Shown: positions 4,464 to 25,289 of the stretch, in pieces
How the letters are laid out: the number at the start of each line of letters is the position of its first letter
How positions within the stretch are numbered: position 1 is the first letter of the stretch
Source: Pirellulales bacterium
Lineage (GTDB): Bacteria; Planctomycetota; Planctomycetia; Pirellulales; JAEUIK01
Assembly: GCA_019694435.1 (NCBI GenBank)
Contig: JAIBBZ010000022.1
Location: forward strand, 1 to 64,000
Direction of reading: 5' to 3'
Length of the DNA: 64,000 bases
Translations under genes and position numbers: made by a program
The notes under the pieces: generated by a model
What the model was told of the DNA's origin: nothing
The model's database searches: none
Seen by the model: the letters and a program-made list of their open reading frames with translations, nothing else

Positions 4464-5324
4464 ATGCCGCCCATGATCGACCCGTCCGGCAATTCGACAA
4501 CCGCGCCGCAATCCGGCAGCCAGGAGGGTGCCGGTGACACGCCGGACGTGGCACTGGCGATCCCGTGCTACAACGAGGAATCGGTGTTGGGCACCACGGT
4601 CACCCAGTTGCTGGCCGCCTTCCGCGAACGGCACGTGCGCGTCGAGCTGGTGCTGGTCGACAATGGGTCGATGGACGGCACTGGGCGGATTATCGACGAG
4701 TTCGTCGCCGCCGGGGCGCCGGTCGTCAAACGCCGCATCGATGTCAATCGCGGCTACGGCAACGGCATTCTCCAAGGGCTCGCGGCCTGTCGGGGCCGGA
4801 TCATCGGGTTCGTGCATGCCGACGGCCAATGCGAGGCGGCCGACGTCGTGAAAATCTGCGAGCTGGCCTTGTCGTCGCCGACGCCCGTGTTCGTCAAGGT
4901 GCGGCGGCGGTTTCGCCTCGACGGGCTGCGGCGCAAGATTATCTCGATCGTCTACAACGCCCTGGCCAACATCCTCTACCCGGGCATCGGCTCGCTCGAC
5001 GTGAATGGCAGCCCCAAGGTCTTTCCGCGGGAATATTTTCCCCGCATGAACATCCGTTCGACCGATTGGTTCATCGACCCTGAGATCATGCTCAGGGCTC
5101 GCGAGCTCAAGCTGCCGGTCATCGAACGCAACGTCATGGCGCAAATGCGCACTGGCGGTCGTTCGCACGTCACCGTGCACACCTGCAAAGAGTTCGTGGT
5201 CAATCTGCTCCGCTACCGCGTCGGCATTTGGAAGCCCGCGACCAGCGAGCGCGATACGGATCACGCGATGTCCGCCGCGGGCCGCCCCTCGGGCGCGGCC
5301 CGGGCGAGTTCCCCCACGGGATAA
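4464..5324 (+). CDS. Glycosyltransferase family 2
   Basis: A 286-residue GT-A fold protein of the dolichyl-phosphate-mannose-synthase-like type. It has the N-terminal nucleotide-binding stretch VALAIPCYNEESVLG, the VDNGSMDGTG loop, the conserved NRGYGNGILQGL segment, and HADGQ in the place of the DxD metal/nucleotide motif. There is no C-terminal membrane anchor, so it is probably cytosolic or peripheral. ATG 4464 or 4473 (MPPMIDP or MIDP) is preferred because upstream codons lack family similarity and would overlap the divergent gene. The stop lies 6 bases before the lipoprotein start, suggesting one transcript. DPM-like enzymes make polyprenyl-phosphate sugars, the donors used by GT-C proteins such as the two flanking paralogues. 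That link is inferred from context. Confidence 0.85.
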   Translation: MPPMIDPSGNSTTAPQSGSQEGAGDTPDVALAIPCYNEESVLGTTVTQLLAAFRERHVRVELVLVDNGSMDGTGRIIDEFVAAGAPVVKRRIDVNRGYGNGILQGLAACRGRIIGFVHADGQCEAADVVKICELALSSPTPVFVKVRRRFRLDGLRRKIISIVYNALANILYPGIGSLDVNGSPKVFPREYFPRMNIRSTDWFIDPEIMLRARELKLPVIERNVMAQMRTGGRSHVTVHTCKEFVVNLLRYRVGIWKPATSERDTDHAMSAAGRPSGAARASSPTG

Positions 5325-5330
5325 AGCTCG

Positions 5331-5756
5331 ATGCGCCATTTGCTGCGCTGGTTGGCCATCGTCTGTGTCGGAACTTTGCCGCTCTTGACAGGCTGCGTCG
5401 GGGGGCGTGCCGGCCGGCCGCAACAGCAACTCGATCGCTTCGTCGCCGCGTACCTGATCGACCAGGCGACTCCCAGCGCGGCCTTACAGTCGCCCGATGG
5501 CCGCTGGTACCGCCGCTTGCGGTTGATTCGCAGTCCACAATGGTGCCAGGTGCTAGGCACGACGGCCGACAATGTGCCACGTGCGCGGCTGAGCTTCGAG
5601 TACGACGTCTGGCACACGGCGTCTCGGGCTGATCGCGGCGAAGCGGAGCGCGATCAGGAGTTTCAGGTCGAACCGCCGCTGGGAGGCCGTTACGGGTTCC
5701 GGCGGCGAGATCTCGAATTCGCCTATCGCGATGGCCGCTGGCAGCGGCTCGAGTAG
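5331..5756 (+). CDS. Small lipoprotein of unknown function
   Basis: A 141-residue protein with an N-terminal signal sequence ending in a lipobox (LLTGC, Cys at about residue 22), so it should be exported and lipid-anchored. The mature part has no family I recognise. It contains YDVWHTASRADRGE and ends in a basic/aromatic stretch (LEFAYRDGRWQRLE) that looks like beta-strands. It starts 6 bases after the GT2 stop and is probably co-transcribed and translationally coupled with it. Its location between two GT-C/TPR genes suggests an envelope role, but no function is claimed. Confidence 0.7.
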   Translation: MRHLLRWLAIVCVGTLPLLTGCVGGRAGRPQQQLDRFVAAYLIDQATPSAALQSPDGRWYRRLRLIRSPQWCQVLGTTADNVPRARLSFEYDVWHTASRADRGEAERDQEFQVEPPLGGRYGFRRRDLEFAYRDGRWQRLE

Positions 5757-5771
5757 CCGGAACCCGCGAGT

Positions 5772-7832
5772 TCAAGAACCAAACGGGTCGTGCCGTTCAG
5801 GGTCCAAGCGTGCCGCTCTTTCGCGCGCCGCGGCCGCTGCTTCCGCATGGCCCTGCAGTTGTTCGACCCGGGCCAGGATCAGCCAGGCCCCGGCTTCGTC
5901 GGGTTCCAACGCCAGGGTGCGACGAATCGATTGGTCGGCCTCGTCCAGTTCGCTCGCACCGGCAGCGGGCCGCTTGCGACTGAGCAGATCGGCCAGCATT
6001 TGGCACAGATCGGCAGCTCGCGGCTCGACGGCCAAGGCGTGGCGCAGCTCGGGCAGCGCACGCTCGTCCTGTCCGGTTTGCACCAGGTGCAGCGCCACGG
6101 CGCGTTGCCGGCTGGCGTCGCTCACCAAAGGAAGCAGCCGCTGCCGATACCAGGCTTCGCGCTCTGCTCGCGAGGGCACGCTGCCCCCCCAGCGCTTGCG
6201 AAACACCAACAGCGGCGATTCGAACCGGCGATCTTCGTAGAGGATTTCGTCGCCCGCCTCAGGTTCCGGCGTATCGAACAACCGCGCGAAGCGATGATGC
6301 AGGGTGTCGATGCGGATGAAGACCGGGGCTTCGGGAACGTCGTCGAGCGCCGCCGCCAGCGGGTGTCGCAGCCAGGCCACGCGGTCGGAATAGTTGTTGA
6401 GCAAATAGCCGCCGGTCCACGGTTTCTGGACGTAGCCCAACCGGGGCAACGTCACAAAATTCGTCAGCGGCGCGGGCACAAAGATCGGCTGTCCTGCGCA
6501 GCACTCCTCCAGCCTGCGAATCAAGGCGAGGTTGGCCTGGTGATCGGCCAGGTATTCGCGCGACCGGTCGAGCAGTCCGCCCGTGCGTCCCAATTCGCCT
6601 GCAACGGCCTGGGCCAGCGCGGGGTAGAACCGGCCATGCTGGTTGGCCAGCTCGAAGACGAGCAGGCCCGCGAACAGGGCGTATTTCCAGCGGGCACGGT
6701 TTGCGGTGAACAGCGGCACCGCGCAGGCAGCCACCAGAAACGGCACCGCGACCAGCAGATAGCGCGGTAAGAAGATGACCCGCGCCATGCCCAGCACGAC
6801 GCCCAGCACGATGGCCCAGCACAGCAGGACGAACTGGACATCGTCGCGTGCAAGCCAGCTTCGCAGGCCAGGCCGACTTGCGCCGGAGGTGCCGGACGCT
6901 GGCGCGGCGCCTCGCGCGGAAAGGAACATTGCGACGAGTGCCGCGGCCGCGGCCAGGAGCAGCAATACGATCAGGTCAGGGCAGCACAGCGGAGCCAAGA
7001 CTTGCAACGTGGCCAGCTCGTGGCGATGGTCGCGCAGGATCAGTTCGCTGGAAATGTGGTTATGGCGCATGACGAACAGTTCCGCGGCGACGAGCAACAC
7101 ACCGAGCACGATCGCCCCCGGCAGACGCTCGTCGCGACGGCGATCCCTGCCGACGACGATCGCGCGCAGCACGATCAGCCCGAGGATTGCCACCGTCGCC
7201 ACGGCGCCGCTGGCCTTGCAGGCATAGCCCACGGCGGTCCACCCCAGTGCGGCCGCCGGCCGGCGACTGAACAGTCGATCGACGGCCATCAGCACTGCGG
7301 CCGCCATGGGCATTTCCATGCCCAACAGCTCGATCTGCGTGCTGAAGATGGGCACGGCCGCGGTCAGCGCTACGGCCAGCAGTGCGGCCCCGGCACCGCA
7401 ATGCGGGCGGAGGATGCGAAACAACGCGACCAGCACCACCGCCGCGCACGCATAGGTGAACAGGTGATAGACGATGATCGTCACGCGCGGCGTGGGACAG
7501 ACGAGCATCAGCAGCGCCACGAAGCTGGGGAGGACGCTGGAGACGTAGCTCCGCGCGCCGCCGTCCCACACGCTCTTTTCGCGCGTCATCAGCCGCTGGT
7601 AATCGAAATGGCTGTCGACCAGGAAATCGGCCTCGGTGAACAGCCCCACGGTGGCGTCCCAATAGGGTGGTGAATCGATCGTCTCGAAGCGCCAGGCGAG
7701 CAGCCCCGCACACACGGCCAACCACGCTAGCGCCGTGCGTACCGGGGCGCGTGCCGGACCCTGGCCGGTTGGTTCCGCGCCTGTCCTCCGGTGGGCCGAA
7801 TGCGACAATTGTGCGTTGTCCGAGGCGTTCAA
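5772..7832 (-). CDS. GT-C/PMT-like membrane glycosyltransferase with C-terminal TPRs, paralogue B
   Basis: A 686-residue protein built like paralogue A but with a shorter C-terminal TPR tail. After the first membrane helix comes PPYWDATVGLFTEADFL. Later family motifs are LGMEMPMAA, LGRTGGLLDRSREYLADH and LPRLGYVQKPW. About ten hydrophobic helices follow one another up to roughly residue 390. The last 140 residues hold TPR-like pairs (QTGQDERALPELRHAL, EADQSIRRTLALEPDEAGA). The frame opens at a TTG at 7832, so the true start is uncertain by a few tens of codons. It is convergent with the lipoprotein gene and divergent from the redoxin fusion genes. It is probably an envelope glycosyltransferase acting outside the inner membrane. 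Confidence 0.75.
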   Translation of the reverse strand: MNASDNAQLSHSAHRRTGAEPTGQGPARAPVRTALAWLAVCAGLLAWRFETIDSPPYWDATVGLFTEADFLVDSHFDYQRLMTREKSVWDGGARSYVSSVLPSFVALLMLVCPTPRVTIIVYHLFTYACAAVVLVALFRILRPHCGAGAALLAVALTAAVPIFSTQIELLGMEMPMAAAVLMAVDRLFSRRPAAALGWTAVGYACKASGAVATVAILGLIVLRAIVVGRDRRRDERLPGAIVLGVLLVAAELFVMRHNHISSELILRDHRHELATLQVLAPLCCPDLIVLLLLAAAAALVAMFLSARGAAPASGTSGASRPGLRSWLARDDVQFVLLCWAIVLGVVLGMARVIFLPRYLLVAVPFLVAACAVPLFTANRARWKYALFAGLLVFELANQHGRFYPALAQAVAGELGRTGGLLDRSREYLADHQANLALIRRLEECCAGQPIFVPAPLTNFVTLPRLGYVQKPWTGGYLLNNYSDRVAWLRHPLAAALDDVPEAPVFIRIDTLHHRFARLFDTPEPEAGDEILYEDRRFESPLLVFRKRWGGSVPSRAEREAWYRQRLLPLVSDASRQRAVALHLVQTGQDERALPELRHALAVEPRAADLCQMLADLLSRKRPAAGASELDEADQSIRRTLALEPDEAGAWLILARVEQLQGHAEAAAAARERAARLDPERHDPFGS

Positions 7833-7983
7833 ATTGCGCTAACCCGCCCTGCGATAGAATGTCGCAACCTGAACGGCCGTCGCAAGTTGCTTGGATATCA
7901 TGGCACGACTAGAATCGGCTGTGGAGGCGTTGGCTTCCGCCCGTGGGCGGAGGCTTCATTTGTTGCTCGGTGCGGTGTCGACC

Positions 7984-9969
7984 ATGACCTTCTCCCCGCC
8001 ACCGGTCCCTCGATGCGCGCCGGGTTTGCCGTGCGTCGGCGTGCGGTTGGGCAGGGCGGCCACCCTGGCCGGGATTCTCATCTTCGGGGCGGTGCTGTTC
8101 GCCGGCCCCCGCGCTTTGCGCGCGGCCGACGAGCCGGCAACTCCGCTGGGACGCAAGATCGACGATTTCACCCTTCGCAGTTTTCGGGGGTCCGAGCATC
8201 GGCTCAGCGACTTCTCGGCTGCCCCGGTGGTCGTGGTCGCGTTTCTGGGCGTCGAATGTCCGCTGGCCAAGCTGTATGGTCCCCGGCTCGAGTCTTTGCA
8301 GCAGCAGTTTGCGGCGCAGGGAGTCGTGTTTCTGGGGATCGATTCGAACCGCCAGGATTCGAACACCGAATTGCTCCATTATGCGCGGACGCACGGCATC
8401 ACGTTTCCCCTGCTCAAAGATCCGGGCAACAAGGTAGCCGATCAGTTCGGCGCACAGCGGACGCCCGAGATGTTCGTGCTCGACCGCCAGCGCGTGATCC
8501 GCTACATCGGCCGCGTCGACGATCAATTCATCATCGGGATTCAGCGTTCCAAGCCACAGCGTAAAGACCTCGAGCTGGCGATCGAGCAGTTGCTCGCCGG
8601 CCAGGCAGTCGAAGTCCCCCTGGCCACGGCGGTGGGGTGCCTGATTGGCCGGATCCACGAGCCGGCCGCCGAGGGCAACGTGACCTGGTCGGGCCAGATT
8701 GCCGCGCTGGCCGCCGAGCATTGCCAGGAGTGCCACCGTCCCGGGCAGGTCGCGCCGTTTCCGCTGCTCACCTACGAAGACACGGTCGGTTGGGCCGACA
8801 TGATCGGCGAGGTCGTCGAACAACGTCGGATGCCGCCCTGGCATGCTGATCCCGAGTACGGTGACTTTGCCAACGCGATGCGGCTGCCCGATGAGGCGCG
8901 CCAGATGTTTCTCGACTGGGTGGCGGCTGGCGCACCCCAGGGCGACCCGGCGCTGGCCCCGCCGCCGCGCGAGTTCGTCGAAGGCTGGCAAATCCCTGAG
9001 CCCGACCAGGTCGTCTACATCGCTGACAAGCCGTTTGTCGTACCGGCCGAGGGAACCGTCGAATATCAGTGGTTCGTCGTCGATCCCGGGTTCGAGGAAG
9101 ACAAGTGGATCCGGCTGGTCGAGTGCCGCCCGGGGAATCCGGCCGTGGTGCACCACGTGACGGTCTATTTCCTGCCCCCCAATACACCCTGGGACATCGA
9201 TATTGGGCGGCCGATCAACTTTCTCGGCGGTTTTGCGCCCGGCAAGCGGCCCGTCAACATTAAGCACTTTGACGGTACGGCGCGATTCATCCCGGCCGGG
9301 TCCAAATTCATCTTCGAGATGCACTATACGCCCAACGGCAGCGTGCAAACCGACCGCAGCTCCGTTGCCATGTTGTTTGCCAAGCCCGAAGAGGTAAAGC
9401 GCCAGTTGTCGCTGGTGCTCGTGGCCAATCGCGATTTCACCATTCCGCCCGGTGCCGCGTCGCATCCGGTCACTTCGCGGTTCACCTTTGCCGAAGACTC
9501 GCTGCTCTACTCGATGAGCCCGCACATGCACCTGCGCGGAAACACCTTCCGGTTCCTCGCCCGGTACCCGAACGGTACCAGCGAGATTCTCTGCGACGTG
9601 CCGCGTTTTGATTTCAACTGGCAGCACGATTACCTGCTCCGCACGCCGAAGCTGCTGCCGAAGGGGACGGTGATGGAGTGCCTGGCGACGTTCGACAACT
9701 CGACCGAGAACCCCGCGAATCCCGACCCGACACAGCCGGTGCGCTGGGGCGACCAGACGTGGGAAGAAATGATGATCGGCGCGATCGCCTACGTCGCCAA
9801 GGACCAGGATTTTTCTCGCGGGGTGGGTATGCCGATTCCATCGCGAAATCGTCAAGGCGGCTACGCCGTCCTGGCGGCCTTGCTCAGCGGCGCGGGGCTG
9901 GCCTCGCTGCTGGCCGCGACCTGGACGGTTCGCCCGTGGAGCATTTACCGGTTGCGATCGGTTTCCTAG
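7984..9969 (+). CDS. Redoxin - cytochrome c - copper type II monooxygenase-like fusion, copy 1
   Basis: A 661-residue exported protein with three redox modules. After a signal/anchor segment comes a redoxin (about 50-195) with a single conserved Cys in GVECPLAKLY (C92). A small cytochrome c domain has CQECH (C247, C250, H251) and a likely distal Met in RRMPPWHA (M283). The third module resembles the peptidylglycine/dopamine monooxygenase copper domains: His pair H390-H391 (VVHHVTVYF), H447 (FEMHYTP), H514/H516 (SPHMHLRG) and Met 596/597 (TWEEMMIG). These match the two three-ligand copper sites of that family. A membrane helix ends the protein. ATG 7984 is chosen for its position before the signal sequence; ATG 7900 or TTG 7891 would add a long N-terminal extension. 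A TAGAAT at 7855-7860 could be a -10 element. The substrate is unknown. Confidence 0.8.
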   Translation: MTFSPPPVPRCAPGLPCVGVRLGRAATLAGILIFGAVLFAGPRALRAADEPATPLGRKIDDFTLRSFRGSEHRLSDFSAAPVVVVAFLGVECPLAKLYGPRLESLQQQFAAQGVVFLGIDSNRQDSNTELLHYARTHGITFPLLKDPGNKVADQFGAQRTPEMFVLDRQRVIRYIGRVDDQFIIGIQRSKPQRKDLELAIEQLLAGQAVEVPLATAVGCLIGRIHEPAAEGNVTWSGQIAALAAEHCQECHRPGQVAPFPLLTYEDTVGWADMIGEVVEQRRMPPWHADPEYGDFANAMRLPDEARQMFLDWVAAGAPQGDPALAPPPREFVEGWQIPEPDQVVYIADKPFVVPAEGTVEYQWFVVDPGFEEDKWIRLVECRPGNPAVVHHVTVYFLPPNTPWDIDIGRPINFLGGFAPGKRPVNIKHFDGTARFIPAGSKFIFEMHYTPNGSVQTDRSSVAMLFAKPEEVKRQLSLVLVANRDFTIPPGAASHPVTSRFTFAEDSLLYSMSPHMHLRGNTFRFLARYPNGTSEILCDVPRFDFNWQHDYLLRTPKLLPKGTVMECLATFDNSTENPANPDPTQPVRWGDQTWEEMMIGAIAYVAKDQDFSRGVGMPIPSRNRQGGYAVLAALLSGAGLASLLAATWTVRPWSIYRLRSVS

Positions 9970-9986
9970 CGAGGCGGTCGAGCGCT

Positions 9987-11948
9987 ATGGCCTGGCGGCC
10001 GTTTGTTCCTGTCCTGGTTGTGGCGGCAGCGCTCGACGCGTGGTGCGGGTTCGACGCCGGCGTTGCCCGCGCGGATGATGCCGGCGCTTCGCCCGTGGGA
10101 CGCAGTGTGCCCGATTTCAGCCTCGCCGATACCGCCGGCACGGTCCGCACCCTGGCTCAGTTGGCCGATCGGCCCGCAGTCGTCGTGGCGTTCTTGGGCG
10201 TCGAGTGCCCGTTGGTGGGGCTGTACATTCCGCGGCTCAACGAGCTGGCGGCCGAATATGCCGACCGCGGTGTGGCGTTCTTGGCGATCAACTCGAATCA
10301 GCAGGATTCATTAGCCGAGATCAGCCACCTGGCGCAGGTTACGAAGCTCGCCTTTCCGCTGCTGAAAGACCCGGGCAACGTGGTGGCCGATGCGTTTGGC
10401 GCCGAGCGCACGCCTGAGGTATTTCTGCTCGACGCCCAGCACAAGGTGCGCTACCGCGGCCGCATCGACGATCAATTCGGCGTCGGCTATCAACGGGCCG
10501 CGCCCACGCGCCGCGATCTAGCCGTCGCGCTCGACGCAGTGCTGCAGCAGCGCGCCGTCGAAATCGCCGAAACCGTGGCGCCGGGTTGCCGCATCGGTCG
10601 ACTGCTCGCCCCCGACCCCACGGCCGGGATCACCTGGGCAGGGCAAATCGCCGCAATCTTTCAACGTCGCTGCCAGAACTGCCATCGGCCCGGTCAGATC
10701 GGCCCGTTCTCCCTGCAAGATTACGGCGAAGTCGTCGGCTGGGCCGGCATGATCGGCGAAGTCGTCGAGGCCGGGCGCATGCCGCCGTGGCACGCCGAAG
10801 CGCCCTGGGGCACGTTCGAGAACGAAGGCCGACTGCTGCCCGAGGAGCGCGAAGCGATTCTCGCCTGGGTTGCAGCCGGTGCACCTTCGGGTGATTTGGC
10901 GCGTGTACCGCCGCCACCGAACTTCTCCACCGGTTGGTTGCTGCCGCGTTATCCCGATCTGATTCTGCCCATGAGCGACCGTGCCTACGACGTCGCGCCC
11001 GCGGGAGTGATCGAATACCAGTACTTCGTCGTCGATCCGAAATTCACGCACGATGTCTGGATCGACGCCGCCGAGGCCCGGCCGGGGAACCGCGCCGTGG
11101 TCCACCACGTAAACATCTTTGTGGCGCCGCCCGAGGTCGATGCGGCCCGGCTCACGCGCGACGAATTGGCCGAGTTGTGGGCCCTGCAAAACCACATGCT
11201 CTGCGGCTATGTGCCGGGCATGCGCCCAACGACCTTTCCGGCGGGGCTCGCTAAGCCAATCCCGGCCGGATCGCGGATCGTCTTCCAGATGCACTACACG
11301 CCGACCGGGGCTCCGCAACAGGATCTCAGCTCGCTGGGGCTGATCTTCGCTCCGCCGGGGGCGCGGCGCACCGAAGTGACGACGGTGCCCGCCGTCAACA
11401 ACTGGTTTGAAATCCCGCCCGGCGATCCCGCCTATCGCGCAGACGTCTCGATCCGCGTCAAGTCGCCAGCGCTGCTCTTGGCCATGCTGCCTCACATGCA
11501 TTTGCGCGGGAAATCGTTTCGCTACACGGCCGAGTATCCCGACGGGCACCGCGAGGTGTTGTTGGACGTGCCGCGCTACGATTTTCTCTGGCAGAACCGC
11601 TACATCCTGGCCGAGCCCAAGCGGTTGCCGGCCGGCACGCGGATTCATTGCGAGGCCGGCTTCGACAATTCGGCCGAGAACCCGGCGAACCCCGACCCGA
11701 CCGCCACGGTGCGCTGGGGCGAGCAGAGTTGGGAAGAGATGTTGATCGGCTATTTCGACGTGGCGCCACTGGACGATCCGCGCGCCGCGCCGGCCGGCAC
11801 AGACCGCCGCTACGCCTATTCCGCGGCCGTGGGCGTGCTGGCAATTGCGGCCAGCGCTTGGTGGCTGTCTCGACGGCCGCGTGGCACTGCGCCGTCGCCG
11901 GCGGGAGAGTCCGCATGGGCCGCTTCGTCCGTTCCGGCCGGTCTATGA
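9987..11948 (+). CDS. Redoxin - cytochrome c - copper type II monooxygenase-like fusion, copy 2
   Basis: A 653-residue paralogue of the preceding gene, beginning 17 bases after its stop. ATG 9987 leads straight into a signal peptide (WRPFVPVLVVAAAL). All key residues are kept: redoxin Cys C74 (GVECPLVGLY), CQNCH (C229, C232, H233), distal Met candidate M265 (GRMPPWHA), copper-site H373-H374 (VVHHVNIF), H436 (FQMHYTP), H503/H505 (LPHMHLRG) and M585 (SWEEMLIG). Relative to copies 1 and 3 it has a small insertion near the second module-three motif (LTRDELAELWALQNH). A C-terminal membrane helix is followed by a short Ala/Pro/Ser tail. It is almost certainly co-transcribed with copy 1. Confidence 0.85.
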   Translation: MAWRPFVPVLVVAAALDAWCGFDAGVARADDAGASPVGRSVPDFSLADTAGTVRTLAQLADRPAVVVAFLGVECPLVGLYIPRLNELAAEYADRGVAFLAINSNQQDSLAEISHLAQVTKLAFPLLKDPGNVVADAFGAERTPEVFLLDAQHKVRYRGRIDDQFGVGYQRAAPTRRDLAVALDAVLQQRAVEIAETVAPGCRIGRLLAPDPTAGITWAGQIAAIFQRRCQNCHRPGQIGPFSLQDYGEVVGWAGMIGEVVEAGRMPPWHAEAPWGTFENEGRLLPEEREAILAWVAAGAPSGDLARVPPPPNFSTGWLLPRYPDLILPMSDRAYDVAPAGVIEYQYFVVDPKFTHDVWIDAAEARPGNRAVVHHVNIFVAPPEVDAARLTRDELAELWALQNHMLCGYVPGMRPTTFPAGLAKPIPAGSRIVFQMHYTPTGAPQQDLSSLGLIFAPPGARRTEVTTVPAVNNWFEIPPGDPAYRADVSIRVKSPALLLAMLPHMHLRGKSFRYTAEYPDGHREVLLDVPRYDFLWQNRYILAEPKRLPAGTRIHCEAGFDNSAENPANPDPTATVRWGEQSWEEMLIGYFDVAPLDDPRAAPAGTDRRYAYSAAVGVLAIAASAWWLSRRPRGTAPSPAGESAWAASSVPAGL

Positions 11949-11996
11949 GTCAATTGCACCTTGGACGCAACACGTATTTCGGGGAGCCAGGCTGTC

Positions 11997-12422
11997 ATGG
12001 ATCTTGAATCGCGATTGTTACGAGTGGAGCTGCGTGCCGCGCGATTGCGGTTGCTGGTCGGACTGTTGCTGTTGGGCCTGCTCGGGTCGTGGGCGCTGCA
12101 AGCCGCGTGGATTTACCGCACCAAGCTGCGCGAACGCACCTCGCAGGCTATTCCCGAATTCGTTCAGGCCCGGCGGTTCATCCTGGTCGACCCGCAAGGC
12201 GAGGAGACCGCCGTCTTGGGCAACACGGACCAGGGCCCCTTCCTCGAGTTGAACGATCAGCACGGCCGGCGCCGCGCGGTCCTCGACGTCCGTTCGACCG
12301 GCCCTGGCCTGACGTTGAACGACGCTCGTGGCACCGTGCGGGCGCTACTGGCCGTGGAAACAGGCGGTCCCTTCTTGGGACTCGCCGACGATCAGGGCAA
12401 CGATCTGTACAAGGCGCCCTAG
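11997..12422 (+). CDS. Membrane-anchored protein with short Gly-rich beta repeats
   Basis: A 141-residue protein with one membrane helix (about residues 20-38, LLVGLLLLGLLGSWALQAAW) and a C-terminal exported domain. The domain is made of three roughly 22-residue units with the pattern G-x-x-x-A-x-L-x-x-x-x-x-GP-x-L-x-L-x-D, for example GPFLELNDQHGRRRAVLDV and GPGLTLNDARGTVRALLAV. Such repeats should form a small beta-solenoid or sheet. ATG 11997 is preferred over ATG 11961 because GGGGAG lies just upstream and the peptide then starts MDLESRL. The stop lies one base before the GTG of the third fusion gene, so it is embedded in that operon. No function is known to me. Confidence 0.75.
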   Translation: MDLESRLLRVELRAARLRLLVGLLLLGLLGSWALQAAWIYRTKLRERTSQAIPEFVQARRFILVDPQGEETAVLGNTDQGPFLELNDQHGRRRAVLDVRSTGPGLTLNDARGTVRALLAVETGGPFLGLADDQGNDLYKAP

Positions 12423-12423
12423 C

Positions 12424-14334
12424 GTGGTTCATCGCCGACTTGGCCGCTGCTTCGCGCCGCTGTTGCTTGCCCTGGCAAGCGCCGCGCATTCGAGTTGCTT
12501 GGTGTGCGCCGACGACCAAGCGGCACCCGTAGTCGGACGCCATGTCGACGACTTCGAGCTGGCCGACTACCGCGGCAAGGAATACCGGTTGACGGATTAC
12601 GCCTTTTCGCCGGTCGTCGTGATCGGCTTTCTGGGGACCGAATGTCCGCTGGCGCGGATTTACGCCCGCCGCCTCAACGAGCTGGTTACGGAATTCGCTC
12701 CGGCCGGCGTCGTGTTCTTGGCGATCGATCCCAACCAGCAGGACTCGCTGGCCGAACTGGCCGAGTTGGTCGCCGAGTTTCACTTGCAATACCCGTTGCT
12801 GAAAGATCCCGGCAACGTCGTGGCCGATCGATTCGGCATCCGCCGCACGCCGGAATTTTGTGTGCTCGACGCCGAGCGCGTGGTGCGCTATCACGGCCGG
12901 ATTGACGATCAGTACGAGATCGGCACGCAGCGCACCCGACCCAACCGCCGCGATCTGGCCCTGGCGATCGAACAGGTGCTGGCAAGACGTCCGGTCGAAA
13001 TCGCCCAGACCAATGCGCCCGGCTGTCTGATCGGCCGCGTACGGCAACCCCAGCCCGATGCCGACGTGACCTGGTCCGAGCAGATCGCCCCGCTGCTGCA
13101 GGCACATTGCCAGGAATGCCATCGCCCGGGGCAGATCGGACCGTTTTCGTTATTGACGTATGCCGAGGCCGTGGGCTGGGCCGACATGATCGGCGAGGTC
13201 GTGGCCCAGCGACGGATGCCGCCGTGGCACGCCGCGCCGGAATATGGCACCTTTGCCAACAACCAGCGGCTGACCGACGAGCAGCTCGATCTCGTGCAGC
13301 GCTGGGTGAAAGCCGGTGCTCCCGAAGGCGATCCTGCGCGGGCGCCCGCCGCGCGGCAGTTTTCGCCCGATTGGCGCATCGCGCAACCGGACGCGATCGT
13401 GCCGATGTCCCAGCGGCCGTTTGAGGTGCCGGCCGAAGGCACCGTGGCCTACCAATGGTTCTACGCCGATCCGCACTTCACCGAGGACAAATGGGTCAAA
13501 GCCGTCGAGGTGCGGCCCTCGGCGTTAGAGGTCGTGCACCATGCGACCGTTTATCTCAAGCCGCCGGACGTACCGTTTGATCTGGCGCTCAACGAACGCA
13601 TCAACCTGGTGGGCGGCTATGATCCCGGCGGCGATCCCTGGCAAGCCCCCGAAGGCATGGCCATGCGCATTCCGGCGCGCAGCCAGTTGGTCTTCGAAAT
13701 GCACTACACCCCCAACGGCAACCCGCAGCAGGATTGCAGCCGGGTTGGCCTGGTGTTTGCCGACCCGGCCAAGGTGCACAAGGAGATTCACTCGGTGATG
13801 CCGGCGAACACGAGTTTTGCCATCCCCCCGGGCGCGAGCAATCACGAAGTGTCGGTCGACTTTACCTTTCCGGCGAATGCCTTGGTCCTGGCGATGCGCC
13901 CGCACCTGCATCTGCGCGGCAAGGCGTTTCGTTTCGCGGCACGGTACCCGGACGGTAGCGAAGAAATCTTGTTGGACGTTCCGCGATACGACTTCAACTG
14001 GCAATACAACTATGTGTTTGCCGAACCGAAACGGCTGCCGTTGGGTACCAAGCTGCATTGCACCGCGTGGTACGACAATTCGGTCGACAACCCCGCTAAC
14101 CCGGATCCCGCTGCCACGGTGCGCTGGGGCGACCAGACGTGGCAGGAAATGATGATCGGCATCTTCGCCATGGCGCTGGCCGATGAAGACCGCCTTGCGC
14201 CCAAGCCCACGGCCTCGCCCCCGCTGCCATCGGTGGCCGGAGAGCTAACCGTGGCCGGCTTGCTCGTGGCCGCCGCGGTCGGGGGCTTGTGGTGGCTGCG
14301 GCGCCGCCTGCTCTTCGCCCACCTCGGAGGATAA
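12424..14334 (+). CDS. Redoxin - cytochrome c - copper type II monooxygenase-like fusion, copy 3
   Basis: A 636-residue third paralogue, starting at GTG 12424, one base after the stop of the repeat protein. This start gives a short signal peptide (CFAPLLLALASAAHS). Conserved residues are redoxin Cys C74 (GTECPLARIY), CQECH (C229, C232, H233), M265 (RRMPPWHA), H372-H373 (VVHHATVYL), H427 (FEMHYTP), H494/H496 (RPHLHLRG) and M576/577 (TWQEMMIG). In the HxH site the middle residue is Leu rather than Met, which should not affect copper binding. A terminal membrane helix and a basic tail (WLRRRLLF) anchor it with the bulk outside the cytoplasm. Its last 90 bases overlap the 3' end of the opposite-strand hydrolase gene. 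Confidence 0.85.
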   Translation: MVHRRLGRCFAPLLLALASAAHSSCLVCADDQAAPVVGRHVDDFELADYRGKEYRLTDYAFSPVVVIGFLGTECPLARIYARRLNELVTEFAPAGVVFLAIDPNQQDSLAELAELVAEFHLQYPLLKDPGNVVADRFGIRRTPEFCVLDAERVVRYHGRIDDQYEIGTQRTRPNRRDLALAIEQVLARRPVEIAQTNAPGCLIGRVRQPQPDADVTWSEQIAPLLQAHCQECHRPGQIGPFSLLTYAEAVGWADMIGEVVAQRRMPPWHAAPEYGTFANNQRLTDEQLDLVQRWVKAGAPEGDPARAPAARQFSPDWRIAQPDAIVPMSQRPFEVPAEGTVAYQWFYADPHFTEDKWVKAVEVRPSALEVVHHATVYLKPPDVPFDLALNERINLVGGYDPGGDPWQAPEGMAMRIPARSQLVFEMHYTPNGNPQQDCSRVGLVFADPAKVHKEIHSVMPANTSFAIPPGASNHEVSVDFTFPANALVLAMRPHLHLRGKAFRFAARYPDGSEEILLDVPRYDFNWQYNYVFAEPKRLPLGTKLHCTAWYDNSVDNPANPDPAATVRWGDQTWQEMMIGIFAMALADEDRLAPKPTASPPLPSVAGELTVAGLLVAAAVGGLWWLRRRLLFAHLGG

Positions 14335-18506: not shown

Positions 18507-20147
18507 CTATGCCTGGGCGGCCGGGCCGCGGGGTGTCTCGTCGGCCACGAGCCGCCCGTTCTCGAGCCGCAAGATCTCGTCAGCCACGTGGTAATAGCGG
18601 TCGTCGTGCGAAATCGCCACGACGCACTTGCCGCGCTCGCGGAGCTCGGGCAGCAGTTCTTCGTAAAAGACCGCCTTGAACTTGGGGTCCTGATCGGCGG
18701 CCCATTCGTCGAACAGCAGAATCGGACGCTCATCGAGCAGCGCCATGACCAGCGCCAATCGCCGGCGTTGACCCTGAGAGAGCCCGAGGGCCTGGATCGA
18801 GTCGGCCGCTAGTTCGACCTTGTCGGCGATCCGCAGCCGCGCCAGCCACTCGCTTGCCCGGTTGAGCAGGTCGGCCGGCTCGTCACCGACCAGGCGCAAG
18901 AACAGGTGGAAGTCGTAGAAGACGGCCGCGAACAACTCGCGCAAACACTCGCGCCGCCGCTCGTCGATCGGAAGGCCGTCGAGCGTCACCTGACCCGAAC
19001 TCGGCGCGTACAGGCCCGTGAGCAGCTTGGCCAGGGTCGACTTGCCGCTGCCATTGCCGCCCGTCACGAACACCAGACGCCCGGGACGCAGGCCCAGGCT
19101 CAACGGGCCCAGCGTGAACGCCGGCTCGCCCACGGGCGCATCGTAGCGGTAGCAGACGTCGTGGTATTCGAGCCGCGCGAAGCCCCTCCTCCCCGGTTCG
19201 GCGCCGCCGGACGCTTCCGGTCGATCGAACTCCAGTCCCAAAGCGTCGATCTGCTCGAGCGCAATTCGAGCCCGGGTCACGGCCGGCAGAAACTGCAGGA
19301 CAAAATCGAGCGGCCTCAGCAAATACAACAACGTCATCCCGTAGCTGGTCAACAAGCTGGGGGCGTCGGCCTGGGCGCGCGGCCAGCCAAACGCCAACAC
19401 ACCCAGCAGGACAATCACCAGCGTGTTGGCCCAAGTGCCTGCCACGACGTAACGCGCCAACCCGAGCAAGAGTTGATTGCGGTATTGCGCCGCGTTGGCG
19501 TGCAGATCGCTGGCGAGAAACGTCTCGCGCCGCTCGCGGTGCAACTTCAGCTCTTTGTTTCCGTCGGTCGCGGCCCGCAATGCGGCGAACAGCGCGTCTT
19601 GGGTTTGCCGTGCCTGGCTCATCGAGTGTCCACCGCTGCGTTCGATCCGCCGATAGACCACGACCCCCAGCCCGAGCGTGGCGACGACGGCCAGCAGCAC
19701 GCCAGGGGAAAGCCAGCCGAGAAAAGCCAAGCATCCGGCGATGGTTGTCGCGCTGACGAACAAGAACGGCAACCCCATCGCCGCGTCGCTGATGGCTGCG
19801 ACGTCCTCGGTCAGAGCCGCCATCAGCCTGGCTGACCCCGCTCGCTCCACCCGTGCCAGCGGAGCCGCCAGGATGCGCTCGACCAATTGCAGGCGCAGCG
19901 TCAACACGGCGTCTTGCGCCATGCGCAACAGCGATAATTGCGATCCAATCCGTGCCAACGCGGCCGCCAGCGCCAGGGCGACGAAGGCCGCCAGCAGCCC
20001 GCCACCGGGGCGGCTCGACGCGGCCAGGGCCTGCGTAACCACGGCAATCAACCCCGCGCTGGCGGCACCGCTGAGCAGCCCCAGCGCGGTCGACGCGAGG
20101 ACCTTGGCCCGCGACCCGGCAAACAGCACCGCGAAGAGCCGCCTCAC
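18507..20147 (-). CDS. Cyclic-peptide-export-type ABC transporter (membrane and ATPase fused)
   Basis: A 546-residue half-transporter: six membrane helices (to about residue 310) then an ATP-binding domain. Walker A is GGNGSGKST (Lys 369). The signature is LSQGQRRRLALVMALL and Walker B reads RPILLFDEWAADQDP, followed by FYEELLPEL and a switch His in AISHDD. The DEWAADQDP wording and the modified signature are typical of the PvdE/SyrD/YojI cyclic-peptide exporter family rather than MsbA-type exporters. Start GTG 20147 is chosen because GGGGAGG sits 8 bases upstream; a TTG at 20216 would add 23 residues. It would export a peptide or siderophore-like product. Nearby thioesterase and phosphopantetheinyl transferase genes support a natural-product link, but no synthetase is in the window. 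Confidence 0.85.
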   Translation of the reverse strand: MRRLFAVLFAGSRAKVLASTALGLLSGAASAGLIAVVTQALAASSRPGGGLLAAFVALALAAALARIGSQLSLLRMAQDAVLTLRLQLVERILAAPLARVERAGSARLMAALTEDVAAISDAAMGLPFLFVSATTIAGCLAFLGWLSPGVLLAVVATLGLGVVVYRRIERSGGHSMSQARQTQDALFAALRAATDGNKELKLHRERRETFLASDLHANAAQYRNQLLLGLARYVVAGTWANTLVIVLLGVLAFGWPRAQADAPSLLTSYGMTLLYLLRPLDFVLQFLPAVTRARIALEQIDALGLEFDRPEASGGAEPGRRGFARLEYHDVCYRYDAPVGEPAFTLGPLSLGLRPGRLVFVTGGNGSGKSTLAKLLTGLYAPSSGQVTLDGLPIDERRRECLRELFAAVFYDFHLFLRLVGDEPADLLNRASEWLARLRIADKVELAADSIQALGLSQGQRRRLALVMALLDERPILLFDEWAADQDPKFKAVFYEELLPELRERGKCVVAISHDDRYYHVADEILRLENGRLVADETPRGPAAQA

Positions 20148-20324
20148 GCTGAGCGCCTCCCCGGCGGAACAATCGTCACGTATCGCGCACTCGGCATGAA
20201 CAGAATCCTTGTTCAATCCGTAATTTCACGCGGCTCCCCGCGCAGACCCCTGCTGCGACGATGCCGCCGAGCTACATTCCGATAGTCAGCGCAGTCGACC
20301 GCGACGGCCGGCTCGGCTCGCCAG

Positions 20325-20353
20325 TTGGGAGCCGTGACAGGGCTAGTTATACT
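20325..20353 (+). promoter_or_regulatory. Sigma-70-like promoter for the small protein gene
   Basis: TTGGGA (20325-20330), a 17-base spacer and TATACT (20348-20353). It lies about 100 bases upstream of the GTG at 20453 and points toward it. Confidence 0.5.
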
Positions 20354-20452
20354 GAAATGGGCCTGATTTTTGGGGTTATTTTTCGCCTCGACCGACCGGC
20401 ACCACGCAGGGTCGACACTCGATAGGCTACTTCGGGACCGGGGGACGCGACT

Positions 20453-20764
20453 GTGGCTGAATACGTGCCGACATTTCTCGGCTCGGTGATGAAGGCCATC
20501 GCCTGCACGCCGAACAAGAACTTCGACGACGACGCGTACGATCGCGGCGTGATCGAGCCGGCGCGCAAGATCCGCAAGCTCCAGGAAGAACTCGGCGACG
20601 CTCGCCCCTCCGATGAGCAAATCAAGGAAGTCATGGGCCTGCTGCTGATCATCTTCGAAACCAAGATGGTCGACATGGACGAGCGCGAGGATCGGATCAA
20701 GGAGATCCTCGATCGCAATCAACTCCACGCCCTCTTTCCCGATCTCTTGCCGCTCAATCGCTGA
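20453..20764 (+). CDS. Conserved-looking small helical protein, unknown function
   Basis: A 103-residue soluble, mostly helical and highly charged protein starting at GTG 20453 (GGGGGA lies about 7 bases upstream). It has alternating acidic and basic segments such as EPARKIRKLQEELGD and MDEREDRIKEILDR, and no signal peptide, membrane helix or cysteine cluster. It has its own promoter-like sequence and codon use like its neighbours, so it is probably a real gene. It lies between the exporter and the phosphopantetheinyl transferase but on the opposite strand to both, so a shared function is not implied. I do not recognise the family. Confidence 0.7.
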   Translation: MAEYVPTFLGSVMKAIACTPNKNFDDDAYDRGVIEPARKIRKLQEELGDARPSDEQIKEVMGLLLIIFETKMVDMDEREDRIKEILDRNQLHALFPDLLPLNR

Positions 20765-20822
20765 AGCGCGCTTCGCGGAGCGAGGCAGGGCCTCTAGACG
20801 GCCGTAGGTCTGCGGGCGCCAG

Positions 20823-21572
20823 CTATGGCACCGTCTCGCGCACCAGCACCCGCGGTTGCATCGCCCCCACGCGTCGCACGGCTAGCGACAAGGTGTGCAC
20901 CGCCGTCGGGTAGTGCTTTTCGAAATACCAGCTCGCCGGGTCGTCGGGAAGCTCCGGGGCGAACCGGATGCCGATCGGGGCCGCATCGCGCAGCACGAAG
21001 GAAAACTGTTCCAGCGGCAGCGACAGGCCCATGCCACGGGCCTTGATATAGGCTTCCTTGAGCGTCCAGTAGTCGAAAAAACCTCGCCGCTGCGAGGTCT
21101 CGGGCAGCTTCCGTAGATCGGCGACTTCGTCGGGCGAAAAGAACCGATCGGCGACGTCCATCCCGCCGCTGGTCCGATCGCGCCACTCGACATCGACGCC
21201 CGACTCGACTTCCCAGGTAATGATGGCCGCGACCAGGCCCGTCGTGTGCGAGACATTGCATTTCAGCCGTCGCCAGCACTCCGGTTCGGACACGTCCGGC
21301 CGGCCATAGGCGTTCGTCACGAACTTCCACGCCGCCGGGTCGACGCCCGTATAGTTCGCGAGCAGCGTGCGCACCAGGGCACGTGTGACCAGATGGGTGT
21401 GCCGGTCCTTTTCGAAGCGATACCGCTCGCGCCGTGCGTGCTCCTCGGGCGAGAGCAACCGGTGGTAACGGGCCAGCGTGTCCGGATCGGTGATCTCGCC
21501 GGTTCTGACGTACCAGACATGCGCCTCGTTGACGCCCAGGTCAGCCGGCGGCTTGCTCCCGAGGGCGCTCAT
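20823..21572 (-). CDS. 4'-phosphopantetheinyl transferase (Sfp type)
   Basis: A 249-residue protein that moves 4'-phosphopantetheine from CoA onto a Ser of acyl- or peptidyl-carrier proteins. Visible Sfp-family motifs are VTNAYGRPDV, NVSHTTGLVAAII, the magnesium-binding GVDVEWRDR (Asp and Glu), and FFDYWTLKEAYIKARGMGL with the W-x-x-KEA-x-x-K signature. Its length matches the Sfp/Gsp class that serves NRPS/PKS rather than the shorter AcpS class. The ATG at 21572 overlaps the thioesterase stop (ATGA), so the two genes are translationally coupled, with the thioesterase upstream. Confidence 0.9.
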   Translation of the reverse strand: MSALGSKPPADLGVNEAHVWYVRTGEITDPDTLARYHRLLSPEEHARRERYRFEKDRHTHLVTRALVRTLLANYTGVDPAAWKFVTNAYGRPDVSEPECWRRLKCNVSHTTGLVAAIITWEVESGVDVEWRDRTSGGMDVADRFFSPDEVADLRKLPETSQRRGFFDYWTLKEAYIKARGMGLSLPLEQFSFVLRDAAPIGIRFAPELPDDPASWYFEKHYPTAVHTLSLAVRRVGAMQPRVLVRETVP

Positions 21573-22360
21573 GGCGACAGACCGCTCGTGTTGTCCGGCA
21601 GCTCGCGAACGAACCGTTGCAGCCGCTGGCTCAACAGTGCCGCCTCGGTTTGCACGAACATGTGGCCTCCCGGCACGAAATCGACGCGGCAGCCGGGGCA
21701 GAACTGCGACCATTCGAACACATGCTCCGGCCGACAGACGACGTCGTCCGTGCCGCCGAAGACCATCACGGGCACGCCCGTCAGCGGCTGCTCGATTTCG
21801 AAGGCCTCGAACGCCTGGAAATCGGCTCGCAGGGCATGCTTGAAATGGTCGAACACGTCCGGCTCGTCGGCCCATTGTTTCGGCACGCCGCCAAACTGGA
21901 TGAGCGCCTCGAGCAATCGTGCGTCGTCCATCGACAAGAACGATTCGTACTCCGCCTTGCGGTGCGGAGGGCGTGCGCCGCTGAGCACTACGGCCCGCGG
22001 TGCCCGGCCGGCGGCCTGCAATGCTTGCGTCAGGGCAAAGACGACGCACCCGCCCAGACTGTGGCCCAACAGCACCGCATCGTCCAACAGTTCCGCCGGG
22101 AGGTGTGCGAGGTAATCGCGGACCATGGCCGGAATGCTGGGCAGCGGATCGCCAGCGCTCCAGCCGTGGCCGGGAGGATCGATCGCCCAGAATCCCCAAT
22201 CGCGTGGCAGATGGTGGGCCAATTCGCGAAACGCCAGCGATTGGCCGCCGGCGTACGGCAGCGCGAGGATGCGCGGAGCGCCGGCCTGCGCCGCGTGAAA
22301 GCGGCGCAGGCCGATGCGGCCGTCGGCAAGGCGAGTGAATTGGGCGCCCGAGTTGGTCAT
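21569..22360 (-). CDS. Type II thioesterase (GrsT/TEII family)
   Basis: A 263-residue alpha/beta hydrolase of the external thioesterase family that removes mis-primed acyl groups from carrier proteins of NRPS or PKS assembly lines. Hallmarks are LPYAGGQSLAFRELAHHLP, the PPGHGWS segment, the nucleophile elbow GHSLGG (S101), a likely catalytic Asp in FGGTDD and the His in VPGGHMF. It is the first gene of a pair with the phosphopantetheinyl transferase, joined by a 4-base overlap. A promoter-like sequence lies about 60 bases upstream. No synthetase is visible nearby, so it either serves a distant cluster or an unrecognised carrier protein. Confidence 0.85.
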   Translation of the reverse strand: MTNSGAQFTRLADGRIGLRRFHAAQAGAPRILALPYAGGQSLAFRELAHHLPRDWGFWAIDPPGHGWSAGDPLPSIPAMVRDYLAHLPAELLDDAVLLGHSLGGCVVFALTQALQAAGRAPRAVVLSGARPPHRKAEYESFLSMDDARLLEALIQFGGVPKQWADEPDVFDHFKHALRADFQAFEAFEIEQPLTGVPVMVFGGTDDVVCRPEHVFEWSQFCPGCRVDFVPGGHMFVQTEAALLSQRLQRFVRELPDNTSGLSP

Positions 22361-22520: not shown

Positions 22521-25289
22521 TTAGTGTTCGCGAAACGGAAGTCCTTGGCGATAGAGATTCAGACGCGACTCGACGGCGGCTCGCTGGTCCGGCTGAGCCG
22601 GGTCGCCTGCCAGCAAGGCGAGTGCTTCCTCGGCCGTCTGGACAGCCTCGTCGAACCGCGACGCGCCCGCATATGCTGCGGCCAAGGCGTCGAGGCACTC
22701 CCAGCGGCGTCGCTTCGTGGCGCGGACGGCGCGCTGGGCCCAATCGATCGCCTGCCCCGGGTCGAACAACGAAGCCTCGCGCGTCGTCGCGAGAAGCCAG
22801 GCCCCCTGGCGCGCCGCCTCGATGGCCAGATCGCTCGTCGGACCGTACTGAATCACCTGGCGAAATTGGACGAGGGCGGCCGCGATATCGCCGCTTTGCA
22901 ACATCAACCGGCCCAACTCGTAATGGCTGTCGATACGCTGCGGTTCGGCCTCGATCGACAGTGTGTAGGCTCGAATGGCGTCGTCGCGCCGTCCGAGCCG
23001 TGCCAGGGTGGCTCCCCAGAGAGCCGCCGTCGACGCCTCGCGGGGCTCGAGCTTGACCGCCTGGGCCAGGTGCGGCTCGGCTTCGCTGTCGCGATCCAGC
23101 TCCAGCAGCAACTCGCCGCTGGCCCGATGCGCCGTTGCTGACGTAGGGTTCGAAGCCAGGGCCCGCTCGAAATCGGCCAACGCCGGTTCGCGTTGTCCGA
23201 GATGTCGGCGGGCCACGCCGCAGCGCACGTAGACGTCGGCCAGCTCGGCGGGCGCCAGCGATGCGCAGTAAGCGCCAATGTTCAGCGCCGCTTCAAACTG
23301 TTCGACCGCCCGTGCCCACGCCTTCTCGGCCAGGAACATGTCGGCATACCGCACGCGCGCCGGGCCGTACTGCGGATTCGCGGCCACGAGCGACATCAGG
23401 CGCGCCCGTGCCTTCTCTTGCTGACGTTCCGTCAGGTCGAGATCGACCAGCATGAGCTCAGCCCCGGCATTCCCCGGAGCGCGATCGAAGATGCGCAACA
23501 CGGCCTTGCGGGCCTCGGCAAATCGCCGTTCCGCGACGAGCTTGCCGACGAGCTCGCGTAGACCTTCCTCGGGCCACAGCAAGCCGAGCAGCGCCGCTCG
23601 GCGTTGTTGAGGCGTTGCCCGTTCGGGGACACTGTGTACAAAGGCCACCAATGCGTCGTTCGCGCCACGAAACAAGGTTGGGCTGGTCGGCAGCGGTCGG
23701 GGCAACGTGCCGGTGCCGATCGGCGTAAAGCGGTTTTCAGCACGCACGACGATGACTTCGGCGGGCAGGTCCTGCAGCAGATCGGGCGACGGCTTGAACG
23801 ACGCGGAGACGTAGGTGTTCACCGTGTAGCCATGGAGCGGCTGGTTGACGTAGCCCAGCATGGGCAGCGAAAGCAGATAGGCGAACGGATTGCCGGTTAC
23901 GATCGGTCGCCCTGAGGCTTGCTGCTCGAGGATTGCCGCTAGGCGGATGTTTTCCCGGTGATCGGCTAGGTATTCGCGGCTCCGTTCGAGCACCGCGCCT
24001 GTGCGACGATCAAAAACTCCGTGTGTCGAGGCCCGTTCGACTGGCGGCAGCAAGTAGCCGTGCAGTTGCACCAGGTTGACGGCAATCAGCGCGACCGCGC
24101 CGGCCAACGCCACAGGCCGCAGCGCCGCACGATGGCCCCAAAGCATCGCAAGCATGACGAGGACCAAAGGAATGGCCATCGTGATGTAGCGTGGGATCGT
24201 GTAGGAGAGCGTGAGACCGGCGAGCATGCCCCCCGCGACGATCCACGTGAACAAGCCAAAGACCCAACACGACCGCTGCCGCCACAGCGCGTCGACCAGC
24301 GCGTTCCAACGGTTGCCAGCCGCCGGCCCTTCGTGTGGGTGCTCCGGGCTCGATTCGCTCGTCGGTTCCGACAGCGCGCCGCGCATCGCCATCAGCGTCG
24401 AAACGCCCGCGACAGCGACGACCGCAATCCAGGTAGGACACCAATAGAGCAACTGCGTCAGGCTGCGCATGCCCTCGCGCGTATCCACCGGCAATCGCTC
24501 GGGGCTCGACTGCGGCAGTTGACTCGACCAAAGGACCAAAGTCAGGCAGCCCGCCAGGACCAGCAGCAGCGTGCCCAACGCGGTCAGTGTGTGACGCTGT
24601 GCGGCCCGGTCCCGGGCGCAGGCCGCCAGGCAGCACAGCGCCGCCAGGTAAACCGCACTCGCGACGAGCAGCACCCCGCCGCTTTGCTTGATGAAAAAGG
24701 CCAGGCAGCCGACGGCAACCGCGCCCAAATAACGCTCGGAGATCAGACAGCCGGCCATCAGTAGCCCGGTGAGCGCCAGGGGAAGGTCCATGCCGATCAT
24801 GTCGACCTGCACGGCAAACACTGGCGTGGTCACGAGCGCGACGACGGTCAACAGGGCGCCGATCCAACCGATACGCGGCCGCAGCAAGGCCACGGTGGTC
24901 GTCGCAGTGGCCGCGGCCAGGGCGAAAGTCGCCAGATGGCCGACGAACATCACCGAGTGCGGCGATGACGTCAGCCGCATCACCAGGGCCAGCAGCGTCG
25001 GCACGATACTGTGCAGGTAGACCCCCGGTCCGCCTTCCAGGAACCGGGGCTCCTCGTACCAGAGACGCTGGTAGTCGAAACCGCTCTCGGACAGAAAATG
25101 CGCCTCGAGAAACAGCCCCATCGCCGAATCCCAATAGGGAGGCGAGGCGACGATTTCCCAGCGCCAAAGAGTGATCGCCAGCCAACAGACGACGAAGATT
25201 GCCAAAAGTTCGGACCTGCGAAGCGGGCGCAATGCAAGCGGCGCGGAATGTACGGCGGAAGCGGCACTCGCAGGCGACGAACGCTGCAT
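22521..25289 (-). CDS. GT-C/PMT-like membrane glycosyltransferase with long TPR tail, paralogue C
   Basis: A 922-residue protein and the longest of three paralogues. The first membrane helix is followed by PPYWDSAMGLFLEAHFL, and then by about ten further helices. Shared family motifs are IGMDLPLAL, RTGAVLERSREYLADH and LPMLGYVNQPLHGY. The C-terminal 350 residues hold at least five TPR units, such as RFAEARKAVLRIFDRAPGNA, RHLGQREPALADFERALASN and LLQSGDIAAALVQFRQVIQ. As in paralogues A and B, the catalytic part should face the periplasm, with the TPRs on the same side as the large loops. ATG 25289 gives a short basic N-terminus. It lies 36 bases downstream of the TMTC-like gene on the same strand, so the two form a likely operon. 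Confidence 0.75.
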   Translation of the reverse strand: MQRSSPASAASAVHSAPLALRPLRRSELLAIFVVCWLAITLWRWEIVASPPYWDSAMGLFLEAHFLSESGFDYQRLWYEEPRFLEGGPGVYLHSIVPTLLALVMRLTSSPHSVMFVGHLATFALAAATATTTVALLRPRIGWIGALLTVVALVTTPVFAVQVDMIGMDLPLALTGLLMAGCLISERYLGAVAVGCLAFFIKQSGGVLLVASAVYLAALCCLAACARDRAAQRHTLTALGTLLLVLAGCLTLVLWSSQLPQSSPERLPVDTREGMRSLTQLLYWCPTWIAVVAVAGVSTLMAMRGALSEPTSESSPEHPHEGPAAGNRWNALVDALWRQRSCWVFGLFTWIVAGGMLAGLTLSYTIPRYITMAIPLVLVMLAMLWGHRAALRPVALAGAVALIAVNLVQLHGYLLPPVERASTHGVFDRRTGAVLERSREYLADHRENIRLAAILEQQASGRPIVTGNPFAYLLSLPMLGYVNQPLHGYTVNTYVSASFKPSPDLLQDLPAEVIVVRAENRFTPIGTGTLPRPLPTSPTLFRGANDALVAFVHSVPERATPQQRRAALLGLLWPEEGLRELVGKLVAERRFAEARKAVLRIFDRAPGNAGAELMLVDLDLTERQQEKARARLMSLVAANPQYGPARVRYADMFLAEKAWARAVEQFEAALNIGAYCASLAPAELADVYVRCGVARRHLGQREPALADFERALASNPTSATAHRASGELLLELDRDSEAEPHLAQAVKLEPREASTAALWGATLARLGRRDDAIRAYTLSIEAEPQRIDSHYELGRLMLQSGDIAAALVQFRQVIQYGPTSDLAIEAARQGAWLLATTREASLFDPGQAIDWAQRAVRATKRRRWECLDALAAAYAGASRFDEAVQTAEEALALLAGDPAQPDQRAAVESRLNLYRQGLPFREH

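Follow-up and report, generated by a model that had tools for sequence, protein, structure and literature searches.

Genes at the locus

The window, which is the whole stretch of DNA analysed here (64,000 nucleotides at the start of contig C22 of a Pirellulales genome assembly), carries genes for an exporter, a type II thioesterase, and an Sfp-type 4'-phosphopantetheinyl transferase within 4 kb, all on the minus strand. These three assignments, made in an earlier note on this DNA, were confirmed by family matches, and the genes all look intact from their sequences. The features of the locus are as follows.

18507–20216, minus strand: PvdE/SyrD/YojI-type (TIGR01194) fused permease-ATPase exporter, 569 aa; matches TIGR01194, PF00005, and PF00664
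20453–20764, plus strand: small conserved protein gene, 103 aa, between the exporter and transferase genes and convergent with the latter
20823–21572, minus strand: Sfp-type 4'-phosphopantetheinyl transferase, 249 aa; Pfam ACPS (6.4e-20) and AASDHPPT_N (7.4e-10)
21569–21572, minus strand: ATGA shared by the stop codon of the thioesterase gene and the start codon of the transferase gene, read from the DNA and also present in two relatives (G001 and G006)
21569–22360, minus strand: type II (free-standing) thioesterase, 263 aa; Pfam Thioesterase (1.2e-32)
22521–25289, minus strand: large TPR-repeat protein upstream of the thioesterase, matching TPR families; a conserved flanking gene

The thioesterase is a free-standing α/β hydrolase of the PF00975 family with a GxSxG motif and a Ser–Asp–His triad, in which the nucleophile (GHSLGG), the Asp (GGTDD), and the His (GGHMF) are all in place and conserved in the alignment with relatives. 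The nearest solved structure is that of the surfactin thioesterase subunit (PDB IDs, 2k2q/2ron; E-value, 5.9e-32), and this separate subunit of surfactin synthetase is an editing enzyme. In a PF00975 search of the genome, the window thioesterase was the only full-length free-standing protein, the other strong match being the cis thioesterase (TE) domain of a non-ribosomal peptide synthetase (NRPS) on contig C28.

The transferase has the size of a double-length Sfp-type monomer (about 230–250 aa) and the two motifs of that type, G(V/I)DxE and WxxKEAxxK, which are seen in the alignment as GVDVE and WTLKEAYIKARG, respectively. Its nearest solved structure is Sfp itself (PDB IDs, 1qr0/4mrt; E-value for 1qr0, 1.2e-20). 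The genome contains three transferases of the ACPS superfamily, namely a 132-aa protein on contig C12 that we read as AcpS from its sequence and whose gene adjoins a tryptophanyl-tRNA synthetase-like gene, a domain fused to a synthase on contig C3, and the window gene, which is the only free-standing Sfp-type enzyme. The exporter is a full-length member of TIGR01194 (cyclic peptide export), with a score of 423 bits (cut-off, 286).

Six-frame searches covering the whole genome placed no condensation or carrier (PP-binding) domain on C22, bearing out the earlier statement that the window lacks a synthetase; the locus is thus not an accessory operon adjacent to an NRPS or a polyketide synthase (PKS). 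The pair is flanked instead by genes for TPR, cyclophilin, redoxin, thiolase, and uronate-isomerase-like proteins, with no adenylation or condensation enzyme among them. Three further genes on the plus strand (7891–9969, 9678–11948, and 12328–14334), each encoding an AhpC/TSA-redoxin domain with a long C-terminal part, look like tandem paralogues.

Conservation of the pair in relatives

The thioesterase–transferase pair occupies the same locus in G001 and G006, which represent two other genera of the family, with 45–57% identity and with the ATGA overlap kept; the order of the TPR protein, thioesterase, transferase, and convergent small gene is also retained. Homologues of the TPR protein, about 31–33% identical, lie directly upstream of the pair in both genomes, and directly upstream of the transferase alone in a third relative (G005), in which the thioesterase is encoded on another contig; the coupling of the two genes is therefore not essential. 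The small gene, which has no match in Pfam or NCBIfam, shares 71–75% identity with its counterparts at the corresponding position in G001 and G006, and is convergent with the transferase gene in all three genomes including that of the window. In four more distant members of the same order (G056, G046, G011, and G024), adjacent genes for these two enzyme families, ordered as in the window, lie beside FAAL-ACP genes, and in G056 and G046 additionally beside KS-AT-DH PKS genes, whereas the pair has no such neighbours in the window's family. No paper on this thioesterase–transferase pair in planctomycetes appeared among the titles and abstracts listed in literature searches.

The transferase tends to co-occur with assembly lines. 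Among 97 genomes, in which NRPS/PKS presence was called from two domain families at set thresholds, 48 of the 54 that gave an NRPS or PKS signal had the transferase, compared with 10 of the 43 that gave none (Fisher p, 5e-11, shared ancestry being ignored), leaving 6 genomes with NRPS/PKS only and 33 with neither.

Two apparent links between loci were considered and discarded. In G005, the neighbourhood of the thioesterase gene contains sugar genes of the DegT aminotransferase, GT9, and PfkB/cytidylyltransferase types, and two of these neighbours resemble genes beside the PKS on contig C27 of the window genome; these belong to common sugar-enzyme families. Similarly, a gene common to the G001 locus and contig C60 proved to be DUF1501, a common planctomycete family, whose presence in the window genome together with PSD1, PSCyt1, and PSCyt2 genes points to a planctomycete origin.

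Assembly lines elsewhere in the genome and the proposed role of the pair

The genome assembly comprises 6.1 Mb in 90 contigs, so that the pair may lie nearer to or farther from a synthase than the separate contigs suggest. The search of the rest of the genome called for in the earlier note revealed NRPS and PKS genes on other contigs. C28 encodes an NRPS with the domain order FAAL-PCP-C-A-PCP-TE, upstream of which lie MacB/FtsX-type ABC exporter genes. The KS/KR/ACP modules encoded on C27 and C60 lack AT domains and contain CurL/RhiE-like linkers, a combination that resembles trans-AT PKSs. A 7634-aa open frame takes up C49 and holds five or more carriers along with several PKS linker domains. 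The orientations at the contig ends would fit a single broken PKS running through C27, C49, and C60, in an order that is our reconstruction. The synthase encoded on C25 is of the KS-AT type and has four carriers; C3 (10555–15939) encodes a multi-ACP KS-AT-dehydratase synthase, whose C-terminal phosphopantetheinyl transferase domain is the fused one mentioned above. On C27, genes of the aromatic amino acid lyase, DegT aminotransferase, epimerase, and GT2 glycosyltransferase families are located at 4669–12991, upstream of the AT-less PKS (13004), and perhaps constitute a starter-unit and sugar set.

These findings support the earlier suggestion that the window genes may serve a distant cluster. 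Since there are only three enzymes of the ACPS superfamily in the genome, the window transferase is by elimination the enzyme that likely activates both the NRPS and the trans-AT PKS. We consider it very probable that the thioesterase and transferase are an ordinary service pair that acts in trans on distant NRPS/PKS lines, with the exporter being separate; action on these lines is what the genome content suggests. The pair itself is one more example of an accessory pair of a known kind, and its arrangement is ordinary.

Sfp-type enzymes load carriers with phosphopantetheine and accept acyl-CoA besides CoA, and type II thioesterases clear the carriers misprimed in this way. On the proposed reading, the window pair would be translationally coupled and kept at a chromosomal locus of its own. 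The transferase would use CoA to turn apo carrier domains into holo ones, and, as the only free-standing Sfp-type enzyme in the genome, would be expected to accept a broad range of carriers; its occasional use of acyl-CoA would leave some of them misprimed. The thioesterase, judging from its family, would hydrolyse the mispriming and other stalled acyl groups from the carrier proteins, so that the line is restored. Coupled translation of the two genes fits such a division of labour. The likely clients would be the lipopeptide-type NRPS on C28, the AT-less PKS on C27, C49, and C60, and perhaps the synthase on C25, with the C3 synthase having a transferase domain of its own. A proofreading role of type II thioesterases is stated in PMC9730843, and PMC4147253 cites Schwarzer et al. 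2002 on misprimed NRPSs.

The closest solved relatives of both window enzymes belong to the surfactin system of Bacillus (SrfA-D thioesterase and Sfp), which combines the same two enzyme families. There, the thioesterase gene lies inside the srfA operon with sfp close by, whereas in the window the two genes overlap and have no adjacent synthetase. Accessory genes without a cluster need not imply a new pathway. The transferase gene is also the one likely to control how most assembly lines of this planctomycete are activated, and would be of use in efforts to express or silence the natural products of the organism.

Alternative readings and the exporter

Two other roles of the pair were weighed against service in trans. 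The unusual short carrier-protein pathway entertained in the earlier note, taken here as one encoded next to the pair, would agree with the fact that the pair adjoins no synthetase in the genomes of the window's family; with no carrier domain on C22 and flanking genes of the kinds listed above, however, we regard it as very unlikely indeed. The thioesterase might also serve, instead of or besides editing, as a trans-acting chain-release enzyme for the AT-less PKS, as the only cis thioesterase detected in the PF00975 search was that of the C28 NRPS, the PKS contigs C27, C49, and C60 showing none. On the other hand, this PKS is spread over several contigs and could lack parts, other families can perform release, and the best solved match of the thioesterase is an editing subunit; chain release is therefore improbable. 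We likewise assign a low probability to the combined reading that, in this planctomycete family, the pair is a stably kept, unlinked module shared by assembly lines across the genome and that its thioesterase additionally releases the product of an AT-less PKS without a thioesterase of its own.

The three genes could, alternatively, form one accessory module for a single product, separated from its synthetase by rearrangement, with the exporter exporting that product. Homologues of the exporter in other phyla are indeed often close to assembly lines, 33 of 80 loci having condensation or KS domains at a distance of about 10 kb or less, and 12 of these 33 also having a transferase nearby. Many homologues are nevertheless without a nearby NRPS, including a 33-row cyanobacterial clade of the exporter tree, in which the window exporter is a long branch of unusual composition, weakly joined to another long branch and thus unplaced. 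Among the 96 relatives, real exporter homologues occur only in G024 and G053 (fragments), the former being 36% identical and on a contig that also holds an NRPS; the remaining relatives show generic ABC matches only. Moreover, the conserved convergent gene at 20453–20764 stands between the exporter and the pair, and at the syntenic locus of G001 this small gene is followed, with no exporter in between, by a homologue of the cyclophilin-TPR gene, which in the window lies beyond the exporter. A single module is thus unlikely, and of the trio proposed earlier, the pair is conserved in relatives and the exporter is not.

The exporter is not part of the thioesterase–transferase unit, as indicated by the intervening convergent gene, its absence at the G001 locus, and its patchiness among relatives. 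Compared with the PvdE/SyrD/YojI exporters, it is likewise full-length and above the curated cut-off, but is located outside an NRPS cluster, divergent, and patchily distributed. It is most likely an independently acquired, later arrival, whose adjacency to the pair may be a coincidence. Its cargo is uncertain, and may be one of the NRPS/PKS products or another small molecule.

In Nitrospira-group genomes (loci L191, L194, L197, L206, L207, L208, L218, and L226), NRPS domains and a transferase are encoded no farther than about 10 kb from the exporter homologue, which makes a complete-looking cluster type.
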